DNA from: Fodinibius sp. Rm-B-1B1-1
GTDB taxonomy: Bacteria > Bacteroidota > Rhodothermia > Balneolales > Balneolaceae
Direction of reading: 5' to 3'
DNA length: 64,000 nucleotides
Assembly: GCF_038594945.1 (NCBI RefSeq)
Contig: NZ_JBCFYD010000001.1
Span: 558,001-622,000 of the forward strand
Position 1 is the first letter of the stretch. Each line of letters starts with the position of its first letter. Shown in pieces: positions 24,331-47,169 of the stretch. The position numbers and the translations under genes were made by a program. The notes beneath the pieces are model-generated. The model saw nothing but the letters and a program-made list of their open reading frames with translations. It had not been told where the DNA came from and ran no database searches.

Positions 24331-24738
24331 TTAGCTATTGTATGTAACAACCCGCTGCCAATGTAGTCCAACAAATAATACCACCGCAGCTACTTCGAAA
24401 GTTCTACCAATGATTCCCAATGGTACACTTGAAACCGTAAGTCGATCGATAATTACTACCGCTATCCCCACATTTAATAACAACACCATCAATTGGGCCA
24501 ATCGAGTGTTACCACGAGATGAACCTTCCAAATAACGAGGTAAAATCCAGTAGGCCGTACCCATTGTAAACTGTACAATCCAGCCCATAACCAACAGCTC
24601 TATATGAACAGGTAGGAGCGACCAAATAGCCGGATGCAAAGCATAGGCTTTATGCACCAGCATAAAAGCTCCAATAATTATCCCAACTAAAAGACACACG
24701 TACGAGGATCGTATTAACCAGCGGCTTGATATGGGCAT
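24331..24738 (-). CDS. Small heme-copper-oxidase-I-like membrane protein (4 helices), A
   Basis: This is a 135-residue protein with four hydrophobic helices. The conserved stretch VHIELLVMGWIVQFTMGTAY then WILPRYL resembles the helix-II region of heme-copper oxidase subunit I and NnrS-like proteins (His followed by GW...Q...G.aYWilPR). The ATG at 24738 follows the stop of the previous gene by one base, so the two are coupled; a longer reading from 24813 would only overlap that gene. A heme- or NO-related role is suggested by this motif and by the globin at the head of the operon. The protein is too short to be an oxidase. Confidence 0.6.
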   Translation of the reverse strand: MPISSRWLIRSSYVCLLVGIIIGAFMLVHKAYALHPAIWSLLPVHIELLVMGWIVQFTMGTAYWILPRYLEGSSRGNTRLAQLMVLLLNVGIAVVIIDRLTVSSVPLGIIGRTFEVAAVVLFVGLHWQRVVTYNS

Positions 24739-24739
24739 A

Positions 24740-25186
24740 CTATTGTTTATTTCGCTTTTTCTTGCGTTTGCGACGACGCTGCTCCTTAGACATGATACGT
24801 GGCCACATTTCAATGCAATAGGTTATCCCACCCGATACTTGTAACATAGCAGAACAAAGCACCAACATATTCCAAATAGCTAAATCAGAGTATGGTAACA
24901 TTGGCTCGGCCACAAGACGAAGCGTCAGTCCTACATTAAGAAAAATGTAAGTGAGCCAACCCCATAATTGCGCTTTGAATCCCTCCTTTTTGGTTCGACC
25001 CGGAAACATCCACATAGACACCCCAAAAATGATTTGCGTTATCCATCCAACCATCAACGTGTGCCAGAACAGAGGCATTAAAACTGGTGAACTTATAGAG
25101 TTAACTTCTACCAAAACTCCCAGTAAAAGCGATATCAGAAAGAATATTAGCCCTGTTTTAATAAATGTACGGGTAATTCTCGGCAT
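24740..25186 (-). CDS. Small heme-copper-oxidase-I-like membrane protein (4 helices), B
   Basis: This is a 148-residue protein with four hydrophobic helices and a very basic tail (MSKEQRRRKRKKKRNKQ). It shares with its downstream neighbour the pattern FWHTLMVGWITQIIFGVSMW then MFPGRTK, that is, His plus GWxxQxxxGxxxWmfP. The two genes are probably ancient duplicates. Its start overlaps the stop of the DUF3565 gene (TAATG), within a run of five coupled genes led by a truncated globin. Two such subunits together would offer paired histidines for heme, which is inference. Confidence 0.6.
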   Translation of the reverse strand: MPRITRTFIKTGLIFFLISLLLGVLVEVNSISSPVLMPLFWHTLMVGWITQIIFGVSMWMFPGRTKKEGFKAQLWGWLTYIFLNVGLTLRLVAEPMLPYSDLAIWNMLVLCSAMLQVSGGITYCIEMWPRIMSKEQRRRKRKKKRNKQ

Positions 25187-25395: not shown

Positions 25396-25598
25396 TTCGT
25401 GCTATTATCAGCTTGTTCACGGAGGATATTCTCAAGGTCTATCGACTGCATGGCACCAATTGCTGCCTCAATGGCCCCATCCATACAAAGTCCACTTAAA
25501 GCAGCATCTTGAAACCCTTCCTTAGCTGCACGTATACATGCCTTTCGCACTTCTTCAGCTTCTTCTTTCTTCATACCACCTTTGGTTTCATCATTCAT
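25392..25598 (-). CDS. Small helical protein of the globin operon, unknown
   Basis: This is a 68-residue helical protein with the core RKACIRAAKEGFQDAALSGL then GAIEAAIGAMQSIDL and no membrane segment. I have seen this kind of short protein in respiratory and denitrification clusters, but I know no function for it. It overlaps the globin gene and the DUF3565 gene by 4 bases each (ATGA type), so translation is coupled on both sides. Confidence 0.6.
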   Translation of the reverse strand: MNDETKGGMKKEEAEEVRKACIRAAKEGFQDAALSGLCMDGAIEAAIGAMQSIDLENILREQADNSTK

Positions 25599-25978
25599 TC
25601 CTGTTCCCGTTGTATTAAACCACCCTTTTCCATTCGGAACTCAAACGAAGAAGCTATATTACGGGCTAATTCTTTTGCAAGTGTAGCCTTTTCTCCACTG
25701 AAATTCTTATCTACTGTTTTCTCGAAAAGCCCATACCATCGATCAAAATCTCCCTTTTTAATAGGCAGAGGTATATGTTGTCGAAAAGGACGTCCCGTAT
25801 ACCTTCCTGTCTGGAACAGCAAGTTCGACCAAAAATCAATCATTTTCGGTAGATGTTTGTCCCAATCAACCTGGGCATAATCGTCAAAGATATATCCCAG
25901 CCTTTCATCATTCTGTACCTTTTCATAAAAACTATGAACAAGTATAGCTACATCCTGCTCATTTTCTATATCACACAT
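25595..25978 (-). CDS. Group III truncated hemoglobin
   Basis: This is a 127-residue globin. The group III pattern is visible: VHSFYEKVQNDERLGYIFDD at 14-33 (B helix Phe-Tyr pair), W-x-KHLPKMIDFWSNLLF, then GRPFRQHIPLPI with the likely proximal His near 88, and DFDRWYGLFEKTVD. Such globins bind O2 and NO, and in several bacteria they are induced by nitrosative stress and turn NO into nitrate. It heads a five-gene coupled operon. The cbb3 oxidase genes lie upstream on the same strand, with a 156-base gap that may hold its own promoter. Confidence 0.9.
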   Translation of the reverse strand: MCDIENEQDVAILVHSFYEKVQNDERLGYIFDDYAQVDWDKHLPKMIDFWSNLLFQTGRYTGRPFRQHIPLPIKKGDFDRWYGLFEKTVDKNFSGEKATLAKELARNIASSFEFRMEKGGLIQREQE

Positions 25979-27201: not shown

Positions 27202-28218
27202 CTACTCCTCCTCGGCGGTAATTTCATTGAGTTCATCATTATTTCTAACTTCTGCTACATCTTCTGCAGTAATCGTTGGCGCATCATTACCCCAGTTGGT
27301 TCTTTCATGATTTATTACAGCAGCAACTTCTTCATCCGATAATGTCTGTTCAAAAGGCTGCATGATTCCATTGTAAGCCTCCCCCTTAATGGACACGCCC
27401 TGCATACCATAGAGCACAGCACGAATATGATCAGTAGGATCTTCATCGATAACTACCGGATCATCGACTAAAGAAGGAAAAGCTCCCTGAACGCCCTGAC
27501 CATTATTTTGATGACATGAGGCACAATTATTGGCGTATATAGAAGCTCCATCAATCGTTTTTTGTTGGTTTTCTGATATCTTCTCACTCGTGTCCTCTTC
27601 AGAATCTGAGGTCGCTGGAGCATTCATAGCGACTTGCTCAAGCGATTGCAGGTAAGCAATTAAAGCTTTAGCCTCTTCGGTAGCTACAATTTGGCCTTCA
27701 TCTGAGCCATAGTCATCCGGCATTGATACTACAGTTTCATCAGATCCAGGATCATTCTTAACCTCAAAAAGCCACGGGTAAGAGGGCATAATTGACTCTT
27801 CAACCACAGCTCTCGGATTATACAAGTGCATATAATGCCATACAGCACTGGGCTGCCGCTTACCAATATTGGTTAGATCCGGACCGGTACGCTCACTTCC
27901 CAAAACAGCAGGCGTTTGCCTCCATACACTCGGACGATTGACCCTCGCATAATCCCCTGGAGCTGATGGACGCCCCCAGTTTTTATCCATTTCAATAGGA
28001 CGTACCTGCTGGGTATGGCAATAAGCACACCCTTCATTAATAAAGACTTTCATCCCCTTCCGTTCCAGTTCGGTCATCGGTTCACTGGCAGGCAATGGCT
28101 CGTTCTCTTGCTGTACCCAAAGAGCCGGAAAGACGGCAATAATTAGACTGAGGAACACAAAGCCCCAAAACACTACGCCAAATAGCAACTTGTGATTTTT
28201 ATGAAAATTAAGCTTCAT
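27202..28218 (-). CDS. ccoO: cbb3 oxidase CcoO subunit fused to a C-terminal cytochrome c domain
   Basis: This is a 338-residue protein. An N-terminal anchor (about 12-34) precedes the CcoO mono-heme domain with CAYCHTQQVRP (heme motif 64-68). After a Ser/Glu-rich linker (200-222) there is a second cytochrome c domain with CASCH at 232-236. CcoO proteins are normally about 200 residues with one heme, so this is a CcoO-CcoP-like fusion. The added domain is very similar to the cytochrome encoded two genes downstream. It starts 14 bases after ccoN and would pass electrons to the CcoN active site. Confidence 0.9.
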   Translation of the reverse strand: MKLNFHKNHKLLFGVVFWGFVFLSLIIAVFPALWVQQENEPLPASEPMTELERKGMKVFINEGCAYCHTQQVRPIEMDKNWGRPSAPGDYARVNRPSVWRQTPAVLGSERTGPDLTNIGKRQPSAVWHYMHLYNPRAVVEESIMPSYPWLFEVKNDPGSDETVVSMPDDYGSDEGQIVATEEAKALIAYLQSLEQVAMNAPATSDSEEDTSEKISENQQKTIDGASIYANNCASCHQNNGQGVQGAFPSLVDDPVVIDEDPTDHIRAVLYGMQGVSIKGEAYNGIMQPFEQTLSDEEVAAVINHERTNWGNDAPTITAEDVAEVRNNDELNEITAEEE

Positions 28219-28232
28219 GACAGTTAAATACT

Positions 28233-29663
28233 TTAGGAGTTTGTAGATTCAACAACTTCATTTTTATTTCCGGGTCTCATTTTCCAGACGTTGTAAGCAA
28301 ATACCAGGTGTGAAATAAACATCATAGTACCTCCGACAGCTCTCCAAACCCAATACGGCGTCATCAAAGTAACCGACTCCATAAATGATTCTCCGGCGAT
28401 CCAGCTGAGCCCCTGCAGAGTTCCACCAATCATCAAAGGAATACTGTATACCAGCACCCCAATAAGCGCCAGCCAAAAATGAGCACCAACGGCAAACTGG
28501 GGCGGTTCATTGCCGGTCATTCTTGGAATCAGCCCATAAATTCCACCCCATACCAGAAATGATATAAATCCATACATGCTCATATGTGAGTGAGCAATGG
28601 TAAAATTCGTAAAGTGCCATACTTTATTAAGGGATCGGAAGGCCTCAAGCGTACCTTGGTAAGACACGATTGCATAAAAGATGACCCCTGCTAAAATAAA
28701 GGGTAAGGAATAACTACGAGCTATAGAACGCCATTTACCCCGCATCGTAAGCAAAAAGTTACCGGTACCGGCCGTCACTGGCACGATCATTCCTACACTA
28801 AAAACAATGGCTACCGTTTGAATCCACCAGGGAATGGGACTAAACACAAAGTGATGTGACCCAATCATGGTGTAGAATACCATCTGCGTCCAAAAGGCCA
28901 GTACACCCAGCGAATATGAGTAGATAGGCCTATTTAATAATTTGGGCAAAAAGTAATATGTAAGACCTAACACCATGGGGGTAAACCACTGTCCCACGCC
29001 TTGGTGCATGTAATATCCCTGAATAACTGTCTGGCTGATTCCGTCCTGCTGATAACCGGGCAAATAGGCAATCAACACCAAAATAATTGTCCACAGGCAG
29101 GCTGCCAGAATGTACCAGTTGGATATATAAATCTCTTTTACATTCCGATCTGCAATGGTTTTATACAAATTATAAGCAACCAATATGAGCCCAAAGGCAA
29201 ACAGAGCAAATATCGGCCAGATAAATTCGCGATATTCCTGCGCACCGTTATTAATACAGGCCATCAAAGCAATCACACCAGTAATAATAGATAGATTCAT
29301 GAGACCTAAGCTAAACCATCCCAACCGGTAGCTAAACAACTCACGCTGACTGGTACGGGGAACCACATAGAGTGCTAATGCAATCATGGCTTGGGAAAGG
29401 AATCCCCAAAATACCACATTCGTATGTACCGGACGAAGTCGACCAAATGAAAGCCAGGAGATGGAATCCAGTTCCGGCCAGACAAATTTGAATCCGAGGT
29501 ATTCACCAACGAGAGTGCCAAATACCAGCCAAAAAGCTGAACAGGCGATAAACGTAAATATCAACTTAACTGATTTGGGAGAGGTATCTATCCGCTCCTC
29601 AACTTTTGCCTTTTCGACCGTTAGTGGCCGTTCCACAGAACGTACAGCAGAAGGTTTATTCAT
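28233..29663 (-). CDS. ccoN: cbb3-type cytochrome c oxidase catalytic subunit (CcoN)
   Basis: This is a 476-residue, 12-helix subunit of the high-affinity oxygen reductase. The expected ligands are present: His80 (low-spin heme), His220 and the pair His270-His271 (CuB), and His358 and His360 (HSH, high-spin and low-spin hemes). Tyr264 lies six residues before the HH pair, where cbb3 enzymes have the cross-linked tyrosine. Keeping that tyrosine, and lacking the extra glutamates of NorB, marks it as an oxygen reductase rather than an NO reductase. It is preceded by the NnrS-like gene (72-base gap) and followed by ccoO. Confidence 0.92.
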   Translation of the reverse strand: MNKPSAVRSVERPLTVEKAKVEERIDTSPKSVKLIFTFIACSAFWLVFGTLVGEYLGFKFVWPELDSISWLSFGRLRPVHTNVVFWGFLSQAMIALALYVVPRTSQRELFSYRLGWFSLGLMNLSIITGVIALMACINNGAQEYREFIWPIFALFAFGLILVAYNLYKTIADRNVKEIYISNWYILAACLWTIILVLIAYLPGYQQDGISQTVIQGYYMHQGVGQWFTPMVLGLTYYFLPKLLNRPIYSYSLGVLAFWTQMVFYTMIGSHHFVFSPIPWWIQTVAIVFSVGMIVPVTAGTGNFLLTMRGKWRSIARSYSLPFILAGVIFYAIVSYQGTLEAFRSLNKVWHFTNFTIAHSHMSMYGFISFLVWGGIYGLIPRMTGNEPPQFAVGAHFWLALIGVLVYSIPLMIGGTLQGLSWIAGESFMESVTLMTPYWVWRAVGGTMMFISHLVFAYNVWKMRPGNKNEVVESTNS

Positions 29664-29735: not shown

Positions 29736-30857
29736 TCATGCGGGTGATTTTTCAACTTTTGGGGGTTCAGGCTTTTTCTTAAGTGACCTTGACATTAGCT
29801 GGTATAACACACCAACCAGAAAGAGAATTATTGCCAAGACATTACCGTGACTTCCCACTTTTCTTACCATTGGAAGCAACAATAAATCACCCAAAATTCG
29901 TATAGCTAAAAAGCCATGCAGTAACAACAGGGGGAGATAAAAATAGCGGTGCCAAGGTATTATTTTGCCAGATAATGATGGGATGATGACCGATGCGTGG
30001 GCAAAGATCATACTAAACACAAACCCTACAAAAATCATATGAAGCAACCCATCGTAAAGCGGTCCTGCAGTTGGAAAGCCATACCAGAGCCCAAACAATC
30101 CCGCTAAAATAAGCCATCCATAACCCGTAAGCAGACAAACAGCACTGTATCGTGTCCACTCTACTGATTTTATGGTCCGACGGGCTACATCATATTGAAC
30201 AAGCCAGCCAGCAATGATAATCAATAATAATGAGGCTGTACTCCAACCTATTACTCGATCAAAATGAGTGATTCCTAATGCAATAATCCATCCTAAGATA
30301 AGTCCCACAAAAATTTGTTGGGCTTGCTTAGGTGGACGCATAATGCGATTCAGCTCCAATCTTTCTCCAAAGATCGTAAGCACCGGAAAAGCGGCCCACC
30401 AACCAACAAGCATATAAATCGGATAGTTAAACACATAGAACAAGTTTCCCACTAATAAGGAACCTGCTCCCAACGCCATAATGAGATGATACATTTTAGG
30501 CTGCAGGTAGTATAGAAAAGCCATAACTACAGTGAGTCCTACTGAACCCAAAATAAGGCTCCACTCTCCCAGCACTTGCAAACCAGTTAACAAAAACCCA
30601 GTTGAAGCAGCCATAAAAACGGGTCCAACAAATGCCCACTTTTTGTCAAGAGCTGCCGCCCTTTCTAACCCAATAAGCGTACCTAAAAAACCATTAATCA
30701 TCAGAGGCCCATGAGCTAAAGGAGAAATAGCATGATTAGTTTCTGGCAAGAATCCCAACCGTACCAACCCCGAATATAATCCTGTAAGCAACCCTACTGC
30801 AGCTACAAAAAGTAGACTGACCAAAATATATGTGGGTACTTTTATATTACTATTCAT
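29736..30857 (-). CDS. NnrS-like / heme-copper-related multi-helix membrane protein
   Basis: This is a 373-residue protein with about 12 membrane helices and a charged tail (KKKPEPPKVEKSPA). Motifs such as SPLAHGPLMINGFLGTLIGL near 46 and LLHMIFVGFVFSMIFAHASV near 275 place conserved histidines inside helices, as in NnrS and related heme-containing membrane proteins tied to NO metabolism. It lies between a DUF59 protein and ccoN on the same strand. The exact family is uncertain; a role in NO tolerance or copper/heme supply to the oxidase is inference. Confidence 0.6.
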   Translation of the reverse strand: MNSNIKVPTYILVSLLFVAAVGLLTGLYSGLVRLGFLPETNHAISPLAHGPLMINGFLGTLIGLERAAALDKKWAFVGPVFMAASTGFLLTGLQVLGEWSLILGSVGLTVVMAFLYYLQPKMYHLIMALGAGSLLVGNLFYVFNYPIYMLVGWWAAFPVLTIFGERLELNRIMRPPKQAQQIFVGLILGWIIALGITHFDRVIGWSTASLLLIIIAGWLVQYDVARRTIKSVEWTRYSAVCLLTGYGWLILAGLFGLWYGFPTAGPLYDGLLHMIFVGFVFSMIFAHASVIIPSLSGKIIPWHRYFYLPLLLLHGFLAIRILGDLLLLPMVRKVGSHGNVLAIILFLVGVLYQLMSRSLKKKPEPPKVEKSPA

Positions 30858-31632: not shown

Positions 31633-31793
31633 CGTTACTACCGCTTATGATTTTTTCTTTGTTTCAGCCCAAAGGTATGAGTAGGCAAAACTAATTTCAA
31701 CCTTAAAAACGGTTTTTACCAATTTAATTGATTTAATACAAATAGATACCTATTTTCTAACTGCTTGAGTTGATAACACAAAGGCAAATAATT

Positions 31794-32543
31794 ATGAGTA
31801 ACGGTCAGTCACTTAAAGGTCTAACCCCTGAAGCTACCATTGGACAAATAATTACCTCAGAGAATAATGCTGGATCACTACTCTCTTCCATTGGCTTAAA
31901 TCCCAAAAATCATGAATCAGAAACCTTGCGCTCGGTATGCCAGCAAAAAAAATGGAGTGAGGCGGAAGTCCTAAAGTGGCTAAAAAAGAACCAGCAAAAT
32001 AATAGCTTACAAAATGGAAATGATGAGGAAAGACTACCTAATTTTGGTAGCAATCTAAATAAGTGGTGTAGTTACCTCGAAAAGTATTACCTGACAAAAA
32101 ATAGAAAGTTACTCGACGATATTAACCGTGATTTTCCCCAAGTCCGAAAAATACATGGCAATCAATACGAGTGGCTCAAGAACATGCATTGGCATCTTCA
32201 AAAACTGGAAGAAAAACTAAATTATTACTTCAATTTTCAACGCCATAAACTCTTTCCCCTTCTCCGAAAGCTAAAAGATTCTAAAAGAAATACTTTGCAT
32301 GGTATTATTAATAAGGTTGAAAATGGTATTCTTATCCTTGAAGAGGATCACCATGAAATTTTAGAGTTAACAAATGTAATTACAAAGAAAGGGCAAGGAT
32401 TTAAAAATCCGGAAGAGGCATGCTCTACACTTCGTATTCTAAATTACAATGTTAAAACGTTATTTTCTTCATTGCGGAAACAAATAAAAACCGAACAGGA
32501 TATCCTTATCCCATTAACCAAACAAAAATTAGAATCGGGATAA
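31794..32543 (+). CDS. Degenerate RIC/ScdA-like paralogue
   Basis: This is a 249-residue protein with the layout of the Fe-S repair protein RIC: a ScdA N-terminal domain then a hemerythrin-like helical domain. It aligns with the intact RIC at 43329, but the key CC pair is replaced (SIGLNPKNHES), keeping only the later CQQK. In the helical domain most di-iron ligands are also changed, for example the HH pair to YY and the last His-Glu set to TEQD. Only H near IHGNQYEW and EEDHHE remain. The ATG at 31794 is chosen over an upstream TTG. It is divergent from the ferredoxin gene. A non-catalytic sensor or partner role is possible. Confidence 0.65.
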   Translation: MSNGQSLKGLTPEATIGQIITSENNAGSLLSSIGLNPKNHESETLRSVCQQKKWSEAEVLKWLKKNQQNNSLQNGNDEERLPNFGSNLNKWCSYLEKYYLTKNRKLLDDINRDFPQVRKIHGNQYEWLKNMHWHLQKLEEKLNYYFNFQRHKLFPLLRKLKDSKRNTLHGIINKVENGILILEEDHHEILELTNVITKKGQGFKNPEEACSTLRILNYNVKTLFSSLRKQIKTEQDILIPLTKQKLESG

Positions 32544-36660: not shown

Positions 36661-37794
36661 ATGAAACCTCTAACACTTACATATACGATATTAATAGGAT
36701 TGCTTTTATCGGGGATTGCAAACATGAGCTATGCTCAAACCGATGAATATAAAATGGATGGAATGACCTTTGGCATGCCTGAAGCAGAGGTGTTTACCGA
36801 AGATTATGATGGTCCACCGGTAGTTGGTGATCATTTAAGTATGCTGCCAAATCTGGAGCCGCTCGATTATGAGGGTAACAAAACACATGATGTTCGCATC
36901 GATATCATCGCCCAAGAAATTGAAGTCGCTGACGGAGTAAAGTACGAGGCATGGACGTTTGGAGGAACCGTACCCGGACCTGTTCTCCACGTCAAAGAAG
37001 GTGATCGCATCACATTTACGATGAAAAATCGCTCTGATGAAGAGGTCACAATTACCCAGCCAACCAAAGAAGGATCTCCTTTTATGCAGCAAGTGGCTCA
37101 GAATAACTTCATGAAGGCCAAGGAAGCCACCATGCCCATGCCACACTCCATGGATTTCCACGCGGGTACGGTAGCCAAAAACGATAAATGGCGAACTATT
37201 GCTCCGGGAGAATCCATAAAATTTGACTGGGTTGCCAACTATCCCGGCTCATACATCTATCACTGTGGTACCCCCAGCGTGCTTATGCACACAGCCATGG
37301 GACAACACGGAGTAGTCGTTGTTTCACCAAAGGATGGGTATGACACTGGCTATGAAATAGACAAAGAATACGTGGTTGTTCAATCAGAATATTACTTGAA
37401 AAAGGGATCCGGCGAATTGTTTCAATATGACTATGAAGCAGCTCAGAATAGAAATCCTTCGCACGTAGTATTTAATGGACACCAGACGATCCTGCACGAT
37501 CAGCCGCTGAAAGCAAATGCCGGAGACCGTGTTCGACTGCACTTTTCAAATAATGGTCCAAGCGGAACCTCGAGCTTCCATGTTATTGGTGCCATCTTCG
37601 ATCGCGTGTGGTTAGAAGGCCACCCCTTTAATGAAATGCGTGGCATGCAAACGGTACTGCTTGGTGCCTCAAGTTCAGCAACAATAGATCTTATCGTACC
37701 TGAAGAAGGAAAATACATCCTGATTGATCACGAATTCGCTGATGCTGAAAAAGGTGCAACAGGCACTCTGAAAGCTGGTCCACGCAAGAAATAA
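36661..37794 (+). CDS. nirK: Copper-containing nitrite reductase (NirK), variant type 1 site
   Basis: This 377-residue periplasmic enzyme would reduce nitrite to NO. A signal peptide ends near residue 25 (MSYAQ). Type 2 copper ligands are present (His167 in MDFHAG, His201 in YHC, His307 in SFHVIG), with catalytic Asp165 and His268 (PSHVVFNG). Type 1 ligands His162, Cys202 and His210 are kept. The axial Met position, five after His210, is Gln215 (MHTAMGQHG), with a Met at 213. An insertion of about 25 residues (132-158) precedes the first copper motif. Transcription probably starts from the sigma-54 promoter at 36575. It leads the cluster nirK-nirV-sco-cupredoxins. Confidence 0.93.
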   Translation: MKPLTLTYTILIGLLLSGIANMSYAQTDEYKMDGMTFGMPEAEVFTEDYDGPPVVGDHLSMLPNLEPLDYEGNKTHDVRIDIIAQEIEVADGVKYEAWTFGGTVPGPVLHVKEGDRITFTMKNRSDEEVTITQPTKEGSPFMQQVAQNNFMKAKEATMPMPHSMDFHAGTVAKNDKWRTIAPGESIKFDWVANYPGSYIYHCGTPSVLMHTAMGQHGVVVVSPKDGYDTGYEIDKEYVVVQSEYYLKKGSGELFQYDYEAAQNRNPSHVVFNGHQTILHDQPLKANAGDRVRLHFSNNGPSGTSSFHVIGAIFDRVWLEGHPFNEMRGMQTVLLGASSSATIDLIVPEEGKYILIDHEFADAEKGATGTLKAGPRKK

Positions 37795-40325: not shown

Positions 40326-40778
40326 ATGCTTCTGTCAAAATCTTGTGTATATGGCTTACGGGCCACTCTTTATCTGGCTACCAATCGAAATGAAGAATAC
40401 ACTTCTATTAAAAAAATCAGCGAAAAGCTTGATATCTCTTTTCATTTTTTGACAAAGATTCTCCAACAATTAACAGCTGCCAATTTGCTGGAATCCCTTC
40501 AAGGCCCTAAAGGAGGCGTCCGATTAGCGCAACCGGCCAATGAAATCTCACTCCGAGATATTGTCGTGGCCATTGATGGTGACGATTTACTTACAAGTTG
40601 TGTATTAGGACTACCCGGCTGCGGGAAAGCAAAACCTTGCCCATTACATGATATGTGGCAAAATACACGCCATCAAATAAAAACAATGCTCGAAACTACC
40701 AGTTTGATCGAAGTGGCTAAAAAAGGAAAAGCAGAAAATTTACGTATCACGGCCGACGGTAATTTTATATGGAATTAA
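40326..40778 (+). CDS. Rrf2-family Fe-S regulator (NsrR-like)
   Basis: This is a 150-residue regulator. The N-terminal winged helix includes KISEKLDISFHFLTKILQQL, and the wing has GPKGGVRLA. Three cysteines, Cys92, Cys99 and Cys105 (CVLGLPGCGKAKPC), form the cluster-binding set of Rrf2 proteins such as NsrR and IscR. NsrR-type regulators sense NO through this cluster. Given nirK on one side and ric on the other, an NO-sensing role is the best reading, though IscR-like control cannot be excluded. Confidence 0.88.
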   Translation: MLLSKSCVYGLRATLYLATNRNEEYTSIKKISEKLDISFHFLTKILQQLTAANLLESLQGPKGGVRLAQPANEISLRDIVVAIDGDDLLTSCVLGLPGCGKAKPCPLHDMWQNTRHQIKTMLETTSLIEVAKKGKAENLRITADGNFIWN

Positions 40779-40868: not shown

Positions 40869-42233
40869 ATGAACTCATCACTTATTAAAAAATATAACAC
40901 CTCCGGACCGCGATATACCTCATATCCCACTGCGGTACAATTCGAAGAAGTTAATGAGGATGAAATAAAATCACTGCACCAATACCTGAAAGAACGAAAC
41001 GAAAACCCTCAACCCATATCACTTTATTTTCATATCCCTTTTTGCTTTTCGCTCTGCTGGTATTGCGGTTGTACCAAGGTAATTACTAAGGATCAAAATC
41101 GGGGAGATCATTATCTCAACTATTTGGAAAAGGAAATCAATCAGGTGGCAGAAATGCTACACCCAAATTCTGACGTCATACAGATTCACTTTGGGGGCGG
41201 CACTCCTACATTTTTAAGTCCCAAGCAGTTAGAGCGACTGGGAAAACTGATCCATGCAAAATTTAACATAACGGATCGGACAGAATTTAGCGTAGAGATC
41301 GATCCCCGTCGATGCAATCAAAATCATGTTCAAACGCTGGCCAGCATTGGCTGCAATCGTGCTTCGCTGGGCGTGCAGGATACTAACGAAGACGTACAGA
41401 AAGCGATTCACCGTATTCAGCCCTTTGAGCAAACTCAACAGACTACCGAATGGCTACGGAACGCTGACATTAACTCCATCAACTTCGACCTTATTTATGG
41501 GCTTCCTCTCCAGTCCACTGACACTTTTCAGCAAACGATGGATGATGTATTAAGCCTTCAACCCGATCGGCTGGCCGTGTACAGTTACGCTCATATTCCC
41601 AGTATGATGCCTGTGCAAAAACTGCTCAATGAATCCGATATGCCAACCACGGATGAGAAATTATCCATGCTACAGCTGAGCATTTCGCACCTCACAAATA
41701 ACGGTTATCGTTTTATTGGGATGGATCATTTTTCGCGTGAGGGGGCAGAGTTGACCCAGGCGATGGATAACGGAACGCTGCAACGTAACTTTCAGGGATA
41801 CAGTACCCTGGCCGGGGCCGACTTGTATGCTTTTGGTATGTCAGGGATTTCAACAGTGGGAAATTATTATTGGCAAAACCCCAAAGAGTTAACCCAATAC
41901 TACAAACAACTTGATAACGGTATCCCGCCGGTAGCAAAGATATTATCGCTAAATCGTGATGACCAACTTCGTAAATCAATCATCATGGAAATTATGTGTC
42001 GTATGGATATAAATATCCGTTCTATTGAAGACGAATGGGGTATTCAATTTGATAACTACTTCTCTCAAGCCATTCGTCGATTACGTCCACTCGCTGAAGA
42101 TGGGCTCATACGCTTTTCTCAAAATAGCCTCCGAATTACCGAAACAGGTCGACTATTTCTCCGCAATATTGCCATGTGTTTTGATCGATATATGACCCGC
42201 AAAAAGAAGCAAACATTCTCAAAAACTGTTTGA
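40869..42233 (+). CDS. hemN: Oxygen-independent coproporphyrinogen III oxidase (HemN)
   Basis: This 454-residue radical-SAM enzyme makes protoporphyrinogen IX without oxygen. It begins YNTSGPRYTSYPTAVQFEE, the typical HemN start, and has the radical SAM motif CxxxCxxC (CFSLCWYC, near 64-71) followed by GGGTPTFL. The HemN C-terminal domain is complete. It would supply heme for respiration under low oxygen, which suits its place beside nirK. Its stop is one base before the ctaA start, so the two are co-expressed. Confidence 0.94.
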   Translation: MNSSLIKKYNTSGPRYTSYPTAVQFEEVNEDEIKSLHQYLKERNENPQPISLYFHIPFCFSLCWYCGCTKVITKDQNRGDHYLNYLEKEINQVAEMLHPNSDVIQIHFGGGTPTFLSPKQLERLGKLIHAKFNITDRTEFSVEIDPRRCNQNHVQTLASIGCNRASLGVQDTNEDVQKAIHRIQPFEQTQQTTEWLRNADINSINFDLIYGLPLQSTDTFQQTMDDVLSLQPDRLAVYSYAHIPSMMPVQKLLNESDMPTTDEKLSMLQLSISHLTNNGYRFIGMDHFSREGAELTQAMDNGTLQRNFQGYSTLAGADLYAFGMSGISTVGNYYWQNPKELTQYYKQLDNGIPPVAKILSLNRDDQLRKSIIMEIMCRMDINIRSIEDEWGIQFDNYFSQAIRRLRPLAEDGLIRFSQNSLRITETGRLFLRNIAMCFDRYMTRKKKQTFSKTV

Positions 42234-42234
42234 T

Positions 42235-43308
42235 ATGGATACTGCACCAAAATATATTCGCAGATGGTTTTGGTCGGGGGCAATCCTCATCTTTCTGATG
42301 GTTATTGTAGGTGGAATTACCCGACTAACTGATTCCGGCCTTTCGATGTCAGACTGGAACTTGATTATGGGCACCATTCCCCCCTTGAATAATGCCGAAT
42401 GGCTGGCAGCTTTTAAACGCTACAAAGAGTTTCCACAGTACCAACAATTAAATGCCGGTATGTCACTGGCCGCATTCAAAAACATTTTCTTCTGGGAATA
42501 CCTGCACCGTCTGCTTGGACGTCTAATTGGATTCGTCTTTTTGATTCCTTTTGCTTTTTTCTGGATCCGTGGGTTCTTCAACACCAAAACATTTCGCCGC
42601 TCATTAATATTACTGGGATTGGGAGCCCTACAAGGTGCCATGGGTTGGTTCATGGTTAAAAGCGGTCTTGTTGATGCCCCCTACGTTAGCCACTACCGAT
42701 TGGCCATTCACCTTCTGCTGGCAATGCTATTATTTGGATTTTGTACGTGGTATGCCCTTGATCTCTATCAGCAAAAACATATCACATTTTCTTCCAATAA
42801 GCCCGTCTTAAAACGTTGGTCAATAGGTTTGATTATCCTTTTTATCGTTCAAGTTATTTGGGGAGCCTTTACGGCCGGACTTGATGCCGGGTATATGTAT
42901 AACACATTTCCCACTATGAATGGCAACTGGATACCCCAAAACATAGGTACGCTTCCGACAGATTTCATCAATTTGGTTGAAAGTCCCGAGACAGTTCAGT
43001 GGATGCACCGAATTTGGGGGACTTTACTTGCAATAGCGACAGCCGGATTCTGGTGGCAGAATTACAATACGAGCATTCGTCCCTCGCTACAACAAAAGGC
43101 ATACATGCTCTTAGGGATTATCCTCACCCAATACGTGCTCGGCATTCTAACGATTCTAACTCACGTCCAACTTGTGATTGCTGTCGTGCATCAAGCAGGA
43201 GCCATGGCAGTACTCTTTTTCTGGATCTGGTATTACCACGATCTAACATCCAACAGGCAATCTTCAGAACATATTCACACTGAAAATAGCCTTAATCATA
43301 TTTATTAA
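42235..43308 (+). CDS. ctaA: Heme A synthase (CtaA/COX15)
   Basis: This is a 357-residue, eight-helix membrane protein of the COX15/CtaA type. The start VGGITRLTDSGLSMSDWNLI and the helix FWEYLHRLLGRLIGFVFL carry the conserved His pattern, and a second set, WMHRIWGTLL and VVHQAGAMAV, lies in the second half. It oxidises heme O to heme A for aa3-type oxidases. No aa3 oxidase or CtaB is in the window, so its product is used elsewhere. Confidence 0.93.
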   Translation: MDTAPKYIRRWFWSGAILIFLMVIVGGITRLTDSGLSMSDWNLIMGTIPPLNNAEWLAAFKRYKEFPQYQQLNAGMSLAAFKNIFFWEYLHRLLGRLIGFVFLIPFAFFWIRGFFNTKTFRRSLILLGLGALQGAMGWFMVKSGLVDAPYVSHYRLAIHLLLAMLLFGFCTWYALDLYQQKHITFSSNKPVLKRWSIGLIILFIVQVIWGAFTAGLDAGYMYNTFPTMNGNWIPQNIGTLPTDFINLVESPETVQWMHRIWGTLLAIATAGFWWQNYNTSIRPSLQQKAYMLLGIILTQYVLGILTILTHVQLVIAVVHQAGAMAVLFFWIWYYHDLTSNRQSSEHIHTENSLNHIY

Positions 43309-43328: not shown

Positions 43329-44048
43329 ATGGATACATTACAACAACGAACAATAGGACAAATTGTTAAAGATGATTACAGAACAGCACAGGTTTTCCAA
43401 GAGTATAACCTCGATTTTTGTTGCGGTGGAAATCGTACCATCGATGAAGCTTGTCAGCAAAAAAGTATAGACCCCCAACAGGTTTATAAGGCGTTGGAAG
43501 AACTGGATCAATCCGGAACCAAAGATGATAATTATGATCAATGGTCACTGGACTTCTTAGTGGACTATATTGTCAACAATCACCATAAATTTAGCCGTAA
43601 CAAACTGCCCGAAATCGGTAAATATGCGAAAAAGGTTGCCAGCGTTCACGGCGAACGGCACGAGGAACTTAAAGAAATTTACTATGAATTTACTATGCTT
43701 CACGGCGAAATATCTAATCACCTTGACAAAGAAGAGCGGATACTTTTCCCTTATATCAAACACCTTGTAGAGGCAAAAGAAAAAGGAGAGAAACCTCAAA
43801 AACCGGAATTTGGAAATGCGGCTAATCCCATTGCAATGATGGAAGAAGAACATGACGATTCCGGAGAAGCCATAGCAAAAATCCGGCGACTAAGTAACGA
43901 TTTTACTCCTCCGGAAGATGCCTGCACCACCTACCGGTTGTTGTATCAAAACCTGGAAGCTTTCGAAAAAGACCTGCATAAACACGTTCACCTCGAAAAT
44001 AATATCCTGTTTCCAAAAGCAATCAACTTAGAAAAAAGATTGAACTGA
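43329..44048 (+). CDS. ric: Iron-sulfur cluster repair di-iron protein (RIC/ScdA/YtfE)
   Basis: This 239-residue protein repairs Fe-S clusters after NO or oxidative damage. The ScdA N-terminal domain has the Cys31-Cys32 pair (NLDFCCGGNRT). The hemerythrin-like domain holds the di-iron ligands: NNHHKF, VHGERHEEL, HLDKEERILFP, EEEHDDSGE and HKHVHLENNILFP. It lies 20 bases after ctaA in a plus-strand run and is the intact counterpart of the degenerate gene at 31794. It is expected to be induced by NO made by NirK. Confidence 0.94.
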   Translation: MDTLQQRTIGQIVKDDYRTAQVFQEYNLDFCCGGNRTIDEACQQKSIDPQQVYKALEELDQSGTKDDNYDQWSLDFLVDYIVNNHHKFSRNKLPEIGKYAKKVASVHGERHEELKEIYYEFTMLHGEISNHLDKEERILFPYIKHLVEAKEKGEKPQKPEFGNAANPIAMMEEEHDDSGEAIAKIRRLSNDFTPPEDACTTYRLLYQNLEAFEKDLHKHVHLENNILFPKAINLEKRLN

Positions 44049-44114: not shown

Positions 44115-45926
44115 ATGCCTGATTCTCTCCACAATTTTTCAATTCCCGTTATGGGAACTGGTCACTCTATCGATTCACCTATTCGCGTCGGCCCCTATGG
44201 CATTAATTCCGTAATCTCTATTGTAGACGATCTGCTGGTAGAAAAAATTCGTAAATATTACTGCCAAAAATACGATTTCGAATACGAAAATATTGCTCGC
44301 AATGCCAAAGACGGTCGTGCTCGGCGTATTACTGCTTACCTGGATACTGTAAAAAACATTGTCCACAAGAAGTTTTCGGCAATTAAAAATCAGCCATTTT
44401 TCGAAGACAATGATAAAGCAAAATATTTCGAAATGCTTCCTGATGGCAGTACCATCAAAGAGAAATACAATCAACTGATGAACACCGAAAAAGGGAGCTC
44501 ACGGGATCGCCTGTCATGCGAACTTTCACGGATGATGAAACCTGGATCTATCGATGTAAACATTATGGCCAAAGTGGACAAGCTCAATTACACTAAAGGC
44601 GGGACCCCGATGAGCCAAGAGTTCAGCGATGCCAGTGCTGCTTTGCGCGGCTATGCCAAAAGCAGCGTATCATCAAGTCTTATTTTGTCTGCCGGATTTA
44701 ACCCACGGCTCTATAATTATATCACCGAGTTTAAAGACTTTTATCGAAATGCGGCTGGAGAAATTAAAAAGAAAATCATTCTGAAAGTCAGTGATTTTCG
44801 TTCTGCCCTCATTCAAGGCAAGTATCTGGCTAAAAAAGGACTTGAAGTTTTTGAATATCGTATTGAATCCGGGTTAAATTGCGGAGGACATGCTTTTCCA
44901 TCCGACGGACACCTAATGCCAAGTCTGCTGCGGGAATTTAGAGAGAAACGTGATAAGCTTACGAAAGCCATTCAGCCGTTAATCAATAAGTATTACAAAG
45001 AAAATTCCGATGGTTTTTGGGATAACTGGGAAATTACCGAACCGCGTTTAACGGTTCAGGGTGGAATTGGCGTTAGCGGTGAGGCCAATCGTTTGCTCAA
45101 TGATTTTGAGATGGATGCCACCGGATGGGGCAGTCCGTTTTTACTGGTACCCGAAGCAACTACCGTAGATAAACCCACACGTCAACTGTTGGAAAATGCC
45201 GGTGAAAAGGAGCTGTATCTCAGCGGTGTATCTCCGCTGGGCGTGCCATTCAATAATATTCGCGATACGGGCTCCGAGCAGTGGCATAAAGAACGGATTA
45301 ACAACGGCAAACCCGGATCACCTTGCCCCAAAGGATTTTTGAAATCGAATACCGAATTCACTGAACAGCCTATCTGTACAGCCTCGACCCAGTATCAACT
45401 GCTCAAACTCGATCAAATTGCACAAAGTGAGATGGCCAAGGATAAAAAAGAGGAACAGCGTGAAAAAGTGCTGAGCAAGGCTTGCCTGTGTGACCACCTT
45501 GGTAATGGGGCACTCATCAATTTAGGAATTTTAGCTGAACACCGCGCGCCGCAGGCCATCTGCCCCGGACCAAATATCGCCTATTATAACGGTGAATATA
45601 CGCTTCACGAAATGGTCAATCATATCTACGGCCGCAGCGAATCGCTTGCAGATCAAGATCGTCCCCATATGTTTGCCAAGGAGATTACCATGTATGTAGA
45701 TTATGTAGAAGAATTGGCAGAGCAGCTGGACGGGAAATCTGGACTGAAGAAGTTACAAAAATTTCAGCAGAACCTGGAAAAAGGAATGGAATACTGCATA
45801 GATATTGCCCAAACTGAACCCTATCAGGATGAAAACCTTGCCTCAATAAAAGATGTAGTTAATAAACAACGTCCAAGGTTACGAGCAGTCATCCAAAATT
45901 TTAAGAAACCCATTGGACAAACGTAA
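44115..45926 (+). CDS. Large conserved protein of the nitrite-reduction cluster, unknown function
   Basis: This is a 603-residue soluble protein with no signal peptide or membrane helix. It begins SIPVMGTGHSIDSPIRVGPY and has a barrel-like alternation in the first 300 residues, with GLNCGGHAFPSDGHLMP near 260. That GGH segment is loosely like the flavin-phosphate region of nitronate monooxygenases. Several cysteines cluster later: GSPCPKG, PICTASTQYQ, SKACLCDH and QAICPGPN (about 400-480), which might bind an Fe-S cluster. I do not recognise a characterised family. It lies 66 bases after ric and 7 bases before a membrane protein gene, so it belongs to the NO/nitrite cluster. A flavin- or metal-dependent enzyme is the best guess. 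Confidence 0.7.
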   Translation: MPDSLHNFSIPVMGTGHSIDSPIRVGPYGINSVISIVDDLLVEKIRKYYCQKYDFEYENIARNAKDGRARRITAYLDTVKNIVHKKFSAIKNQPFFEDNDKAKYFEMLPDGSTIKEKYNQLMNTEKGSSRDRLSCELSRMMKPGSIDVNIMAKVDKLNYTKGGTPMSQEFSDASAALRGYAKSSVSSSLILSAGFNPRLYNYITEFKDFYRNAAGEIKKKIILKVSDFRSALIQGKYLAKKGLEVFEYRIESGLNCGGHAFPSDGHLMPSLLREFREKRDKLTKAIQPLINKYYKENSDGFWDNWEITEPRLTVQGGIGVSGEANRLLNDFEMDATGWGSPFLLVPEATTVDKPTRQLLENAGEKELYLSGVSPLGVPFNNIRDTGSEQWHKERINNGKPGSPCPKGFLKSNTEFTEQPICTASTQYQLLKLDQIAQSEMAKDKKEEQREKVLSKACLCDHLGNGALINLGILAEHRAPQAICPGPNIAYYNGEYTLHEMVNHIYGRSESLADQDRPHMFAKEITMYVDYVEELAEQLDGKSGLKKLQKFQQNLEKGMEYCIDIAQTEPYQDENLASIKDVVNKQRPRLRAVIQNFKKPIGQT

Positions 45927-45933
45927 TCATCAA

Positions 45934-47169
45934 ATGAATCCAAAAAACAGTTGGCTTACACATTCACTTTTGTGGCATGCTTCTATAGCCTGTTTTCTAA
46001 TAGCCGTGCTAACGGGGTTCCTATACCGGGTAGGAATGCTGGGATGGGTACCTGGCAATCTGTCTCTTGGCAATATCAGACATGCCCATTCCCACCTCAT
46101 GTTTTTTGGATGGGCTGTACCTCTTCCATTATATATTTTCTTATACCAGATTTCTTCTATAACAGATCAAAGCAAAAACTGGCTACAACTGATGTACTAT
46201 GCTTTGGCTGCAGAATTAACTTTGGGACTATTGGCTTATCCCTTTTTCCTTTTTTACGGATATCGTCCTGTTCAAATTGGATCTCTATCCTTACCCCTGT
46301 CTGTTATTATATCGGGACTTGTAATGGTCTGCTGGTATATATACCTGTGGGGGTACTTGCATGTCCGATCCTATCTGAAAAAGACTTCTTGGCAAGCTTG
46401 GTTCGACGGGGCTCTCCTAATGCTTGTTGTAAGCTCTTTGGGGGCATGGGGCATAGCAATACTTCAGGCCGTTGGTCCATCAAGTCATCTTTTTATGGAG
46501 GGTTTAACACACTTCTTTCTCGCTACTTTTACCGAGGGCTGGGTTGTATTAGCGCTTATAACCATACTGATAACGCAATCATCTACGACTTCTTCCGATT
46601 CGCTTACTTCTCAAAATCTTTCACTTGCCTGTATTGCTATTGGCGCTCCGCTCACTTTTCCCTACGGAATCTCTGAATCACTATTATCACCCATACTCCT
46701 AATTGTAGCACGTGCAGGAGGACTCCTAACGGCTATTGGACTGATCGCAATATTATATACCCTGATCTCATCTGCCATGGCAAAAAACCGCATCTGGATC
46801 TGGCCTATTTTGTTATTAAGCATTAAAGCCGGCATACAGATAATAGCTTCTGTTATGCCTTCCTCATTCTGGTTATCCGATCACGCTCTTCGCATTTTAT
46901 ACCTGCATATTCTCCTCTTGGGAGGTTTTACGCTTGGAGTAATTGGCTATGTGCATATTAATAGCCGGGTGTCAACCTCATATTATTATGGCGTCGTTCT
47001 CTCGGTATGTGCGGTCTTGATTAGCTTGCTATTACCCAGTCCTCTTTGGCCAACGGACTGGAGTGGACTGTGGGTATTTTACGCCTTGGCAATAACGGCC
47101 ATCTTTCCTGTGGTAGCTGTTTTAGTTGAATGGGTTAAGGTCTCTATTGATCATTCAAAACACGTCTAA
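45934..47169 (+). CDS. Multi-helix membrane protein, heme-copper/NnrS-like
   Basis: This is an about 411-residue protein with roughly 12 membrane helices. Near the start, SLGNIRHAHSHLMFFGWAVP puts three closely spaced histidines at the mouth of a helix, as in heme-copper oxidase subunit I and NnrS relatives. Further histidines occur in EGLTHFFLATFTEGW (near 195) and YLHILLLGG (near 333). The full CuB ligand set of oxidases or NO reductases is not obvious. I start at the ATG at 45934; a TTG at 45913 would overlap the upstream gene. It follows the 603-residue protein gene and probably works with it. Confidence 0.6.
   Translation: MNPKNSWLTHSLLWHASIACFLIAVLTGFLYRVGMLGWVPGNLSLGNIRHAHSHLMFFGWAVPLPLYIFLYQISSITDQSKNWLQLMYYALAAELTLGLLAYPFFLFYGYRPVQIGSLSLPLSVIISGLVMVCWYIYLWGYLHVRSYLKKTSWQAWFDGALLMLVVSSLGAWGIAILQAVGPSSHLFMEGLTHFFLATFTEGWVVLALITILITQSSTTSSDSLTSQNLSLACIAIGAPLTFPYGISESLLSPILLIVARAGGLLTAIGLIAILYTLISSAMAKNRIWIWPILLLSIKAGIQIIASVMPSSFWLSDHALRILYLHILLLGGFTLGVIGYVHINSRVSTSYYYGVVLSVCAVLISLLLPSPLWPTDWSGLWVFYALAITAIFPVVAVLVEWVKVSIDHSKHV

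Follow-up and report, generated by a model that had tools for sequence, protein, structure and literature searches.

A putative FMN/Fe-S oxidoreductase and a predicted oxidase-derived heme-b membrane protein encoded beside nitrite-reduction genes in Fodinibius

The window analysed here, a 64,000-nucleotide stretch of the genome of Fodinibius sp. Rm-B-1B1-1, a salt-loving member of the Bacteroidota, carries a set of nitrite-reduction genes followed by two genes that belong to no named family, and this raises the question of what the two products contribute to nitrite respiration. They are P603, a protein of 603 residues, and M418, a membrane protein (Table 1). A preliminary description had proposed that the pair might be an NO- or nitrite-handling system, for example a flavin/Fe-S enzyme with a membrane heme partner, standing where an NO reductase would be expected. 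The explanation to which we give about an even chance is that P603 is an FMN/Fe-S oxidoreductase and M418 a bis-His heme-b protein, both accessory to nitrite respiration; we infer the cofactors, the substrate, the direction of the reaction and the role.

Table 1. Positions of the genes and motifs discussed, numbered within the window
Feature	Position	Strand	Remarks
Truncated globin	25595-25978		
CcoO-like cbb3 subunit	27202-28218	-	
cbb3-type oxidase subunit I (CcoN-like)	28233..29663	-	active-site Tyr kept
NirK-type nitrite reductase	36661..37794	+	structure homologues; under NCBIfam cut-off
Rrf2-family regulator	40326..40778	+	
HemN, O2-independent coproporphyrinogen oxidase	40869..42233	+	
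CtaA heme A synthase	42235..43308	+	
RIC (YtfE/ScdA-type) Fe-S repair protein	43329..44048	+	
P603	44115..45926	+	proposed oxidoreductase of an unnamed family: FMN TIM-barrel (~residues 1-380), then a Cys-rich, probably Fe-S, C-terminal part
C256-G257-G258-H259 codons (LNCGGHA) of P603	44880..44891	+	invariant; proposed catalytic His; coordinate computed from 44115 + 3 x (256-1)
C404, C421, C457, C459, C483 stretch of P603	45324..45563	+	all invariant; proposed Fe-S part
M418	45913..47169	+	heme-copper-oxidase-fold membrane protein; only low-spin heme ligands kept (H51, H324 counted from 45937)

The setting is largely as the preliminary description had it. NirK is genuine by its structure homologues, though under the NCBIfam cut-off, and RIC, the Rrf2 regulator and a globin, here a truncated one, are present; the cbb3-type oxidase genes, about 15 kb upstream of P603 and M418, had been omitted from the earlier account. 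In this NirK and in Balneolaceae relatives (L240, L241, L242, L249), Gln takes the place of the axial Met of the type-1 copper site in HxxxxM (HTAMGQHG), which resembles stellacyanin-like sites. Two further genes of the window are noted in passing. At 29736-30857 (-) lies the gene for a 372-residue membrane protein with no Pfam match, a 33% identical relative of which adjoins nosY in a distant family (L244), and at 31770-32543 (+) a second, divergent RIC/hemerythrin-type protein is encoded next to a winged-helix regulator.

Both P603 and M418 are confirmed as real genes. P603 is an intact open frame, the frame of M418 starts at a TTG or at an ATG at 45934 and either overlaps the P603 frame at its end or begins almost directly behind it, and homologues of both run full length without stops. 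P603 was found in 152 of the 392 Bacteroidota genomes sampled, as a single copy in nearly all, and, within Balneolales, the order of the present genome, in 97 of 129 genomes; the closest named relatives of P603 are Aliifodinibius records, and no P603 was found in the viral contigs and plasmids searched. The protein has no Pfam match (0 families at E 1), no NCBIfam match and no match among solved structures (PDB) by sequence or profile search, and Pfam scans of 49 homologues gave scattered weak matches only, PF03060 not being among the 25 commonest families. Literature searches returned no mention of either the P603 or the M418 family. Both families seem undescribed in the libraries searched, each being a variant of a known fold.

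The N-terminal half of P603 is probably an FMN barrel of the NMO/FabK/FabX/PfaD kind, a conclusion that draws jointly on motifs, a marginal profile match and structure comparison, none of which is decisive alone. Six cysteines (256, 404, 421, 457, 459 and 483) and H259 are invariant in 66 homologues, and a 49-sequence alignment adds N149, E251, C256-G257-G258-H259, Q315-G316-G317 and G337-W338. The preliminary description had pointed to four Cys clusters and a GGHA segment; the cysteines in question are these six invariant residues, and GGH257-259 is invariant too. The order of the motifs fits that of NMO/FabK enzymes (Asn in 'GVN', 'E..(A/S)GGH', 'AAGGI', 'GS/T-RF'), and the catalytic His of the GGH motif is present in P603 as H259 of CGGH in all 66 homologues. 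The barrel part matches the NMO/FabK profile marginally, with a score of 25.1 and an E-value of 0.023 against at most 24.4 for 60 column shuffles, and the alignment starts at the GGI-GS block and runs onward. AlphaFold gave a weak model (mean pLDDT 57), yet one whose best structural matches are PfaD (Z 14.5), the MlnA enoyl reductase, FabX (13.4), FabK (12.4) and NMO (12.2), and Foldseek gave no match under E 0.001. P603 thus resembles NMO/FabK (PF03060) and the PfaD/PksE-type enoyl reductases in FMN motif order, marginal profile match and Z-scores of 12-14.5, but differs from them in lacking a Pfam or NCBIfam match, in its insertions and in an extra C-terminal Cys-rich part.

That extra part finds its nearest parallel in Helicobacter pylori FabX, an FMN and [4Fe-4S] dehydrogenase/isomerase (7e1q) that, as proposed for P603, has an FMN barrel with a GGH-type catalytic His followed by a C-terminal Cys-rich part (PMC8626469). 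The residues of FabX that touch FMN include N99, E175, G180 and G220/G221, and H182 is its catalytic His (PMC8626469). The two proteins share no significant sequence match, and P603 is about 230 residues longer. Because five invariant cysteines come after the barrel, P603 probably has an Fe-S site, and the comparison suggests that the C-terminal cysteines would form it as in FabX, but with a different spacing: C404/421/457/459/483 do not follow the [4Fe-4S] pattern of C300/C304/C308/C320 in FabX (PMC8626469). The earlier guess of a flavin/Fe-S enzyme is thereby supported by comparison of conserved residues, structural matches and profile. As to other flavoenzyme and barrel families, hhalign against 30 GltB sequences yielded nothing meaningful for glutamate synthase (FMN + 3Fe-4S; PF01645), and IMPDH gave no profile match.

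M418 has no match in Pfam and NCBIfam scans, yet its profile (29 homologues) aligns over its full length with a CcoN/NorB profile (hhalign: 434 columns, probability 92%, E 6e-7, score 60.6; controls at most 20.7 when shuffled and 24.1 when reversed). Of the H372, c14, aa3, B-family NOR-like and CcoN/NorB profiles, c14 and CcoN/NorB alone gave strong matches, and a 480-residue HCO-like protein matched weakly. The HAHSH motif of the preliminary description is present, with H49/H51/H53 in 27 of 29 homologues, and the profile alignment places H51 within it on the helix II ligand of the low-spin heme and H324 on the helix X ligand. In the same alignment, the three FeB/CuB histidines are missing (Ala196 stands in place of the helix VI His, and helix VII has lost its His pair), and the proximal His of high-spin heme b3 is replaced by Tyr322 in 27 of 29 homologues. 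The structure model is weak (pLDDT 50) but in agreement: Foldseek placed cNOR on top (probability 0.96-0.97, E 0.09-0.2), and VIA-align matched the model over its full length to cbb3 (Z 11.1) and cNOR (Z 9.2), values below the level of trust that the tool advises for helical proteins. M418 is thus like CcoN of cbb3 oxidase and NorB of cNOR in its full-length profile match and low-spin heme ligands, and unlike them in having neither the CuB/FeB histidines nor the His of the high-spin heme. It is probably a remote heme-copper oxidase subunit I, that is, a heme-b protein derived from an oxidase and devoid of the catalytic centre, and the earlier guess of a membrane heme partner gains support from the profile match and the predicted low-spin ligands. 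Elsewhere in the window, at 24331-25186 (-), two adjacent membrane proteins of about 150 residues, half-size and oxidase-like, show weak COX1 matches (E 1e-6 and 3e-5); the pair also matches the M418 profile at E 3e-6.

A different account of M418 compares it with NnrS (PF05940), a membrane heme/copper-type protein tied to NO-stress and denitrification regulons, those of NsrR, NnrR and DNR (PMC1274295), and supposes that M418 eases NO stress by binding NO or metal. We regard this as possible, with clearly less than an even chance. M418 has a similar size and a His-rich TM2, and it stands beside Rrf2, RIC and nirK/nos in distant families, in keeping with the NnrS regulons. However, PF05940 has no match at E 10 or below in the genome and M418 matches no Pfam family, so it is not a member of PF05940; this lowers the case for membership, and not that for a likeness of work.

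The association of the pair with nitrogen-oxide genes can be judged across genomes. In the 392 genomes, the odds ratio of P603 with nirK is 8.4 (p 2e-16) and with nosZ 2.4 (p 8e-5), and M418 has odds ratios of 22 with nirK and 11 with nosZ, all of these being computed from the listed hits only and irrespective of phylogeny. Stratification by family, which corrects partly for phylogeny, leaves the odds ratio of P603 with nirK at 8.8 (p 5e-4), families having been read by hand and the test covering nirK over the cut-off without unlisted double negatives. P603 lies less than 25 kb from nosZ in 22 genomes and from nirK in 20, in all 33 of 151 genomes, where chance would give an estimated two or so. 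On the P603 tree, the linked state requires 15 changes, at least 11 of them forced by well-supported branches, a count that is approximate in that some loci labelled unlinked were later found to be nirK-linked. RIC, Rrf2, globin, NadA-NadB, CtaA, NirK and nos genes recur less than 4 kb from P603 in several genera, and P603 and M418 are neighbours in their own family and in f21, f29 and f57, the distant-family loci including L086, L179 and L237. NadA-NadB adjoin P603 in families f29 and f57 (L086, L096, L099, L178, L238), perhaps as a route to NAD that needs no O2 and is retained together with denitrification genes.

These data also bear on the view that P603 serves the general metabolism of Bacteroidota as a flavoenzyme with no relation to nitrogen oxides, and that its location reflects a loose clustering of facultative anaerobic functions. 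The presence of P603 in 152 of the 392 genomes would agree with such a role, as would the 118 of 151 P603 genes that have nirK or nosZ over 25 kb away or on a different contig, and the lack of any gene theme among P603 neighbours outside nitrogen-oxide loci. That homologues are mostly far from nitrogen-oxide genes had been named in the preliminary description as counting against its own proposal. We nevertheless hold a general flavoenzyme to be unlikely, since the association with nirK holds within families, the linkage arose several times on the tree, and RIC, Rrf2 and globin recur beside P603. Of the proposal that the pair is an NO- or nitrite-handling system, the tie to nirK, within families too, and the adjacency of P603 and M418 in distant families speak for the general idea, and the replacement of an NO reductase is not supported.

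Less probable still is that P603 acts in the manner of a nitronate monooxygenase or denitrase, clearing nitro or nitrosated metabolites that arise as NirK releases NO. NMO proper consumes O2, of which little would be available in nitrite respiration, and it has no C-terminal Cys-rich part; moreover, enoyl-reductase types are equally among the closest structural matches of P603. These points weigh against an NMO-like barrel with a GGH motif and the association of P603 with nirK, the two observations that recommend the idea, and leave it improbable.

The search for an NO reductase gives the preliminary description its due in part. Genome-wide, PF00115 finds three full-length oxidases (A2-type, ba3-type and the cbb3-like one of the window) and a short c14-type protein; the motifs of the three (SHPAVY, GHAVVY and YTMIGSHH) all keep the active-site Tyr of oxygen reductases. 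No canonical NOR, and hence neither the NorB nor the qNor that had been reported missing, was found by this search, whose scope is the PF00115 family. In the congeners G009 and G014, the nir region holds an HCO in which GHMSQQ replaces the tyrosine motif, together with a CuA-like subunit, and the HCO is a probable B-family NO reductase. HCOs of the GHMSQQ type are located at L232:4525-6249 and at L234 near 5121. In G301, a relative of family f29, a NorB with HLWVEGVWE and GHHYYY lies about 9-10 kb from P603. Since these congeners and the f29 relative have P603 and NORs of their own, P603 is not a general NOR substitute, and M418, which has neither the CuB/FeB histidines nor the ligand of the high-spin heme, is excluded as a canonical NO reductase. 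That the two proteins form a new system for reducing NO or nitrite in place of NO reductase is thus highly improbable despite the absence of a canonical NOR by PF00115, the linkage of the pair to nirK and the oxidase/NOR fold of M418, as relatives with both P603 and M418 have NORs and P603 is cytosolic and mostly unlinked to nitrogen-oxide genes.

The nir regions of the congeners also encode another oxidase-like protein of 467-480 residues (L232:6989-8428, L233:7875-9275; 30-39 bits to COX1), in which the helix VII His pair is seemingly absent. In the congeners, P603 lies downstream of nosZ-nosB-nosL-nosD-nosF-nosY, NosB being recognised by its motif LNHYIGM (PMC9697520). No NosZ over the family cut-off was found in the present genome, and because nearly all sampled congeners have NosZ, the cluster here may be what is left of a more complete denitrification locus.

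Returning to P603 and M418 as accessories to nitrite respiration, a working scheme can be drawn. P603 would be a cytosolic enzyme in which an FMN TIM barrel like those of NMO, FabK, FabX and PfaD precedes a Cys-rich Fe-S part, and it would probably oxidise or reduce an organic substrate, H259 serving as the acid/base and FMN carrying the hydride. The Fe-S site of the C-terminal cysteines would accept or donate the electrons, and O2 would therefore not be needed. M418, with a heme-copper oxidase fold and only a bis-His low-spin heme b, would serve as an electron carrier or in NO protection, not in NO reduction: it may donate or accept electrons at the membrane or, in the way supposed for NnrS-type proteins, bind NO. 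The company of HemN (an O2-independent heme step), NadA-NadB, RIC and Rrf2 suggests an anaerobic, NO-stressed state, and the pair would be accessory to this nitrite-respiration programme beside RIC, HemN and CtaA. In that state, an FMN/Fe-S enzyme resembling FabX could carry out an oxidation without O2, although FabX itself hands its electrons to O2 in H. pylori (PMC8626469). Tentatively, and with the odds against it, P603 may represent a new FMN/Fe-S class that performs a normally O2-requiring biosynthetic step without O2, and M418 an ex-oxidase turned heme-b wire or NO buffer, the two forming an unrecognised accessory kit of nitrite respiration.

Overall, P603 is a strongly conserved protein that occurs in more than one third of the sampled Bacteroidota genomes without a Pfam or NCBIfam name. 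Being associated with nirK, it is a candidate for a missing part of the denitrification machinery in a phylum that matters for the turnover of N2O. For its part, M418 is a relative of the heme-copper oxidases that is predicted to have lost the catalytic centre yet kept the electron-transfer heme.
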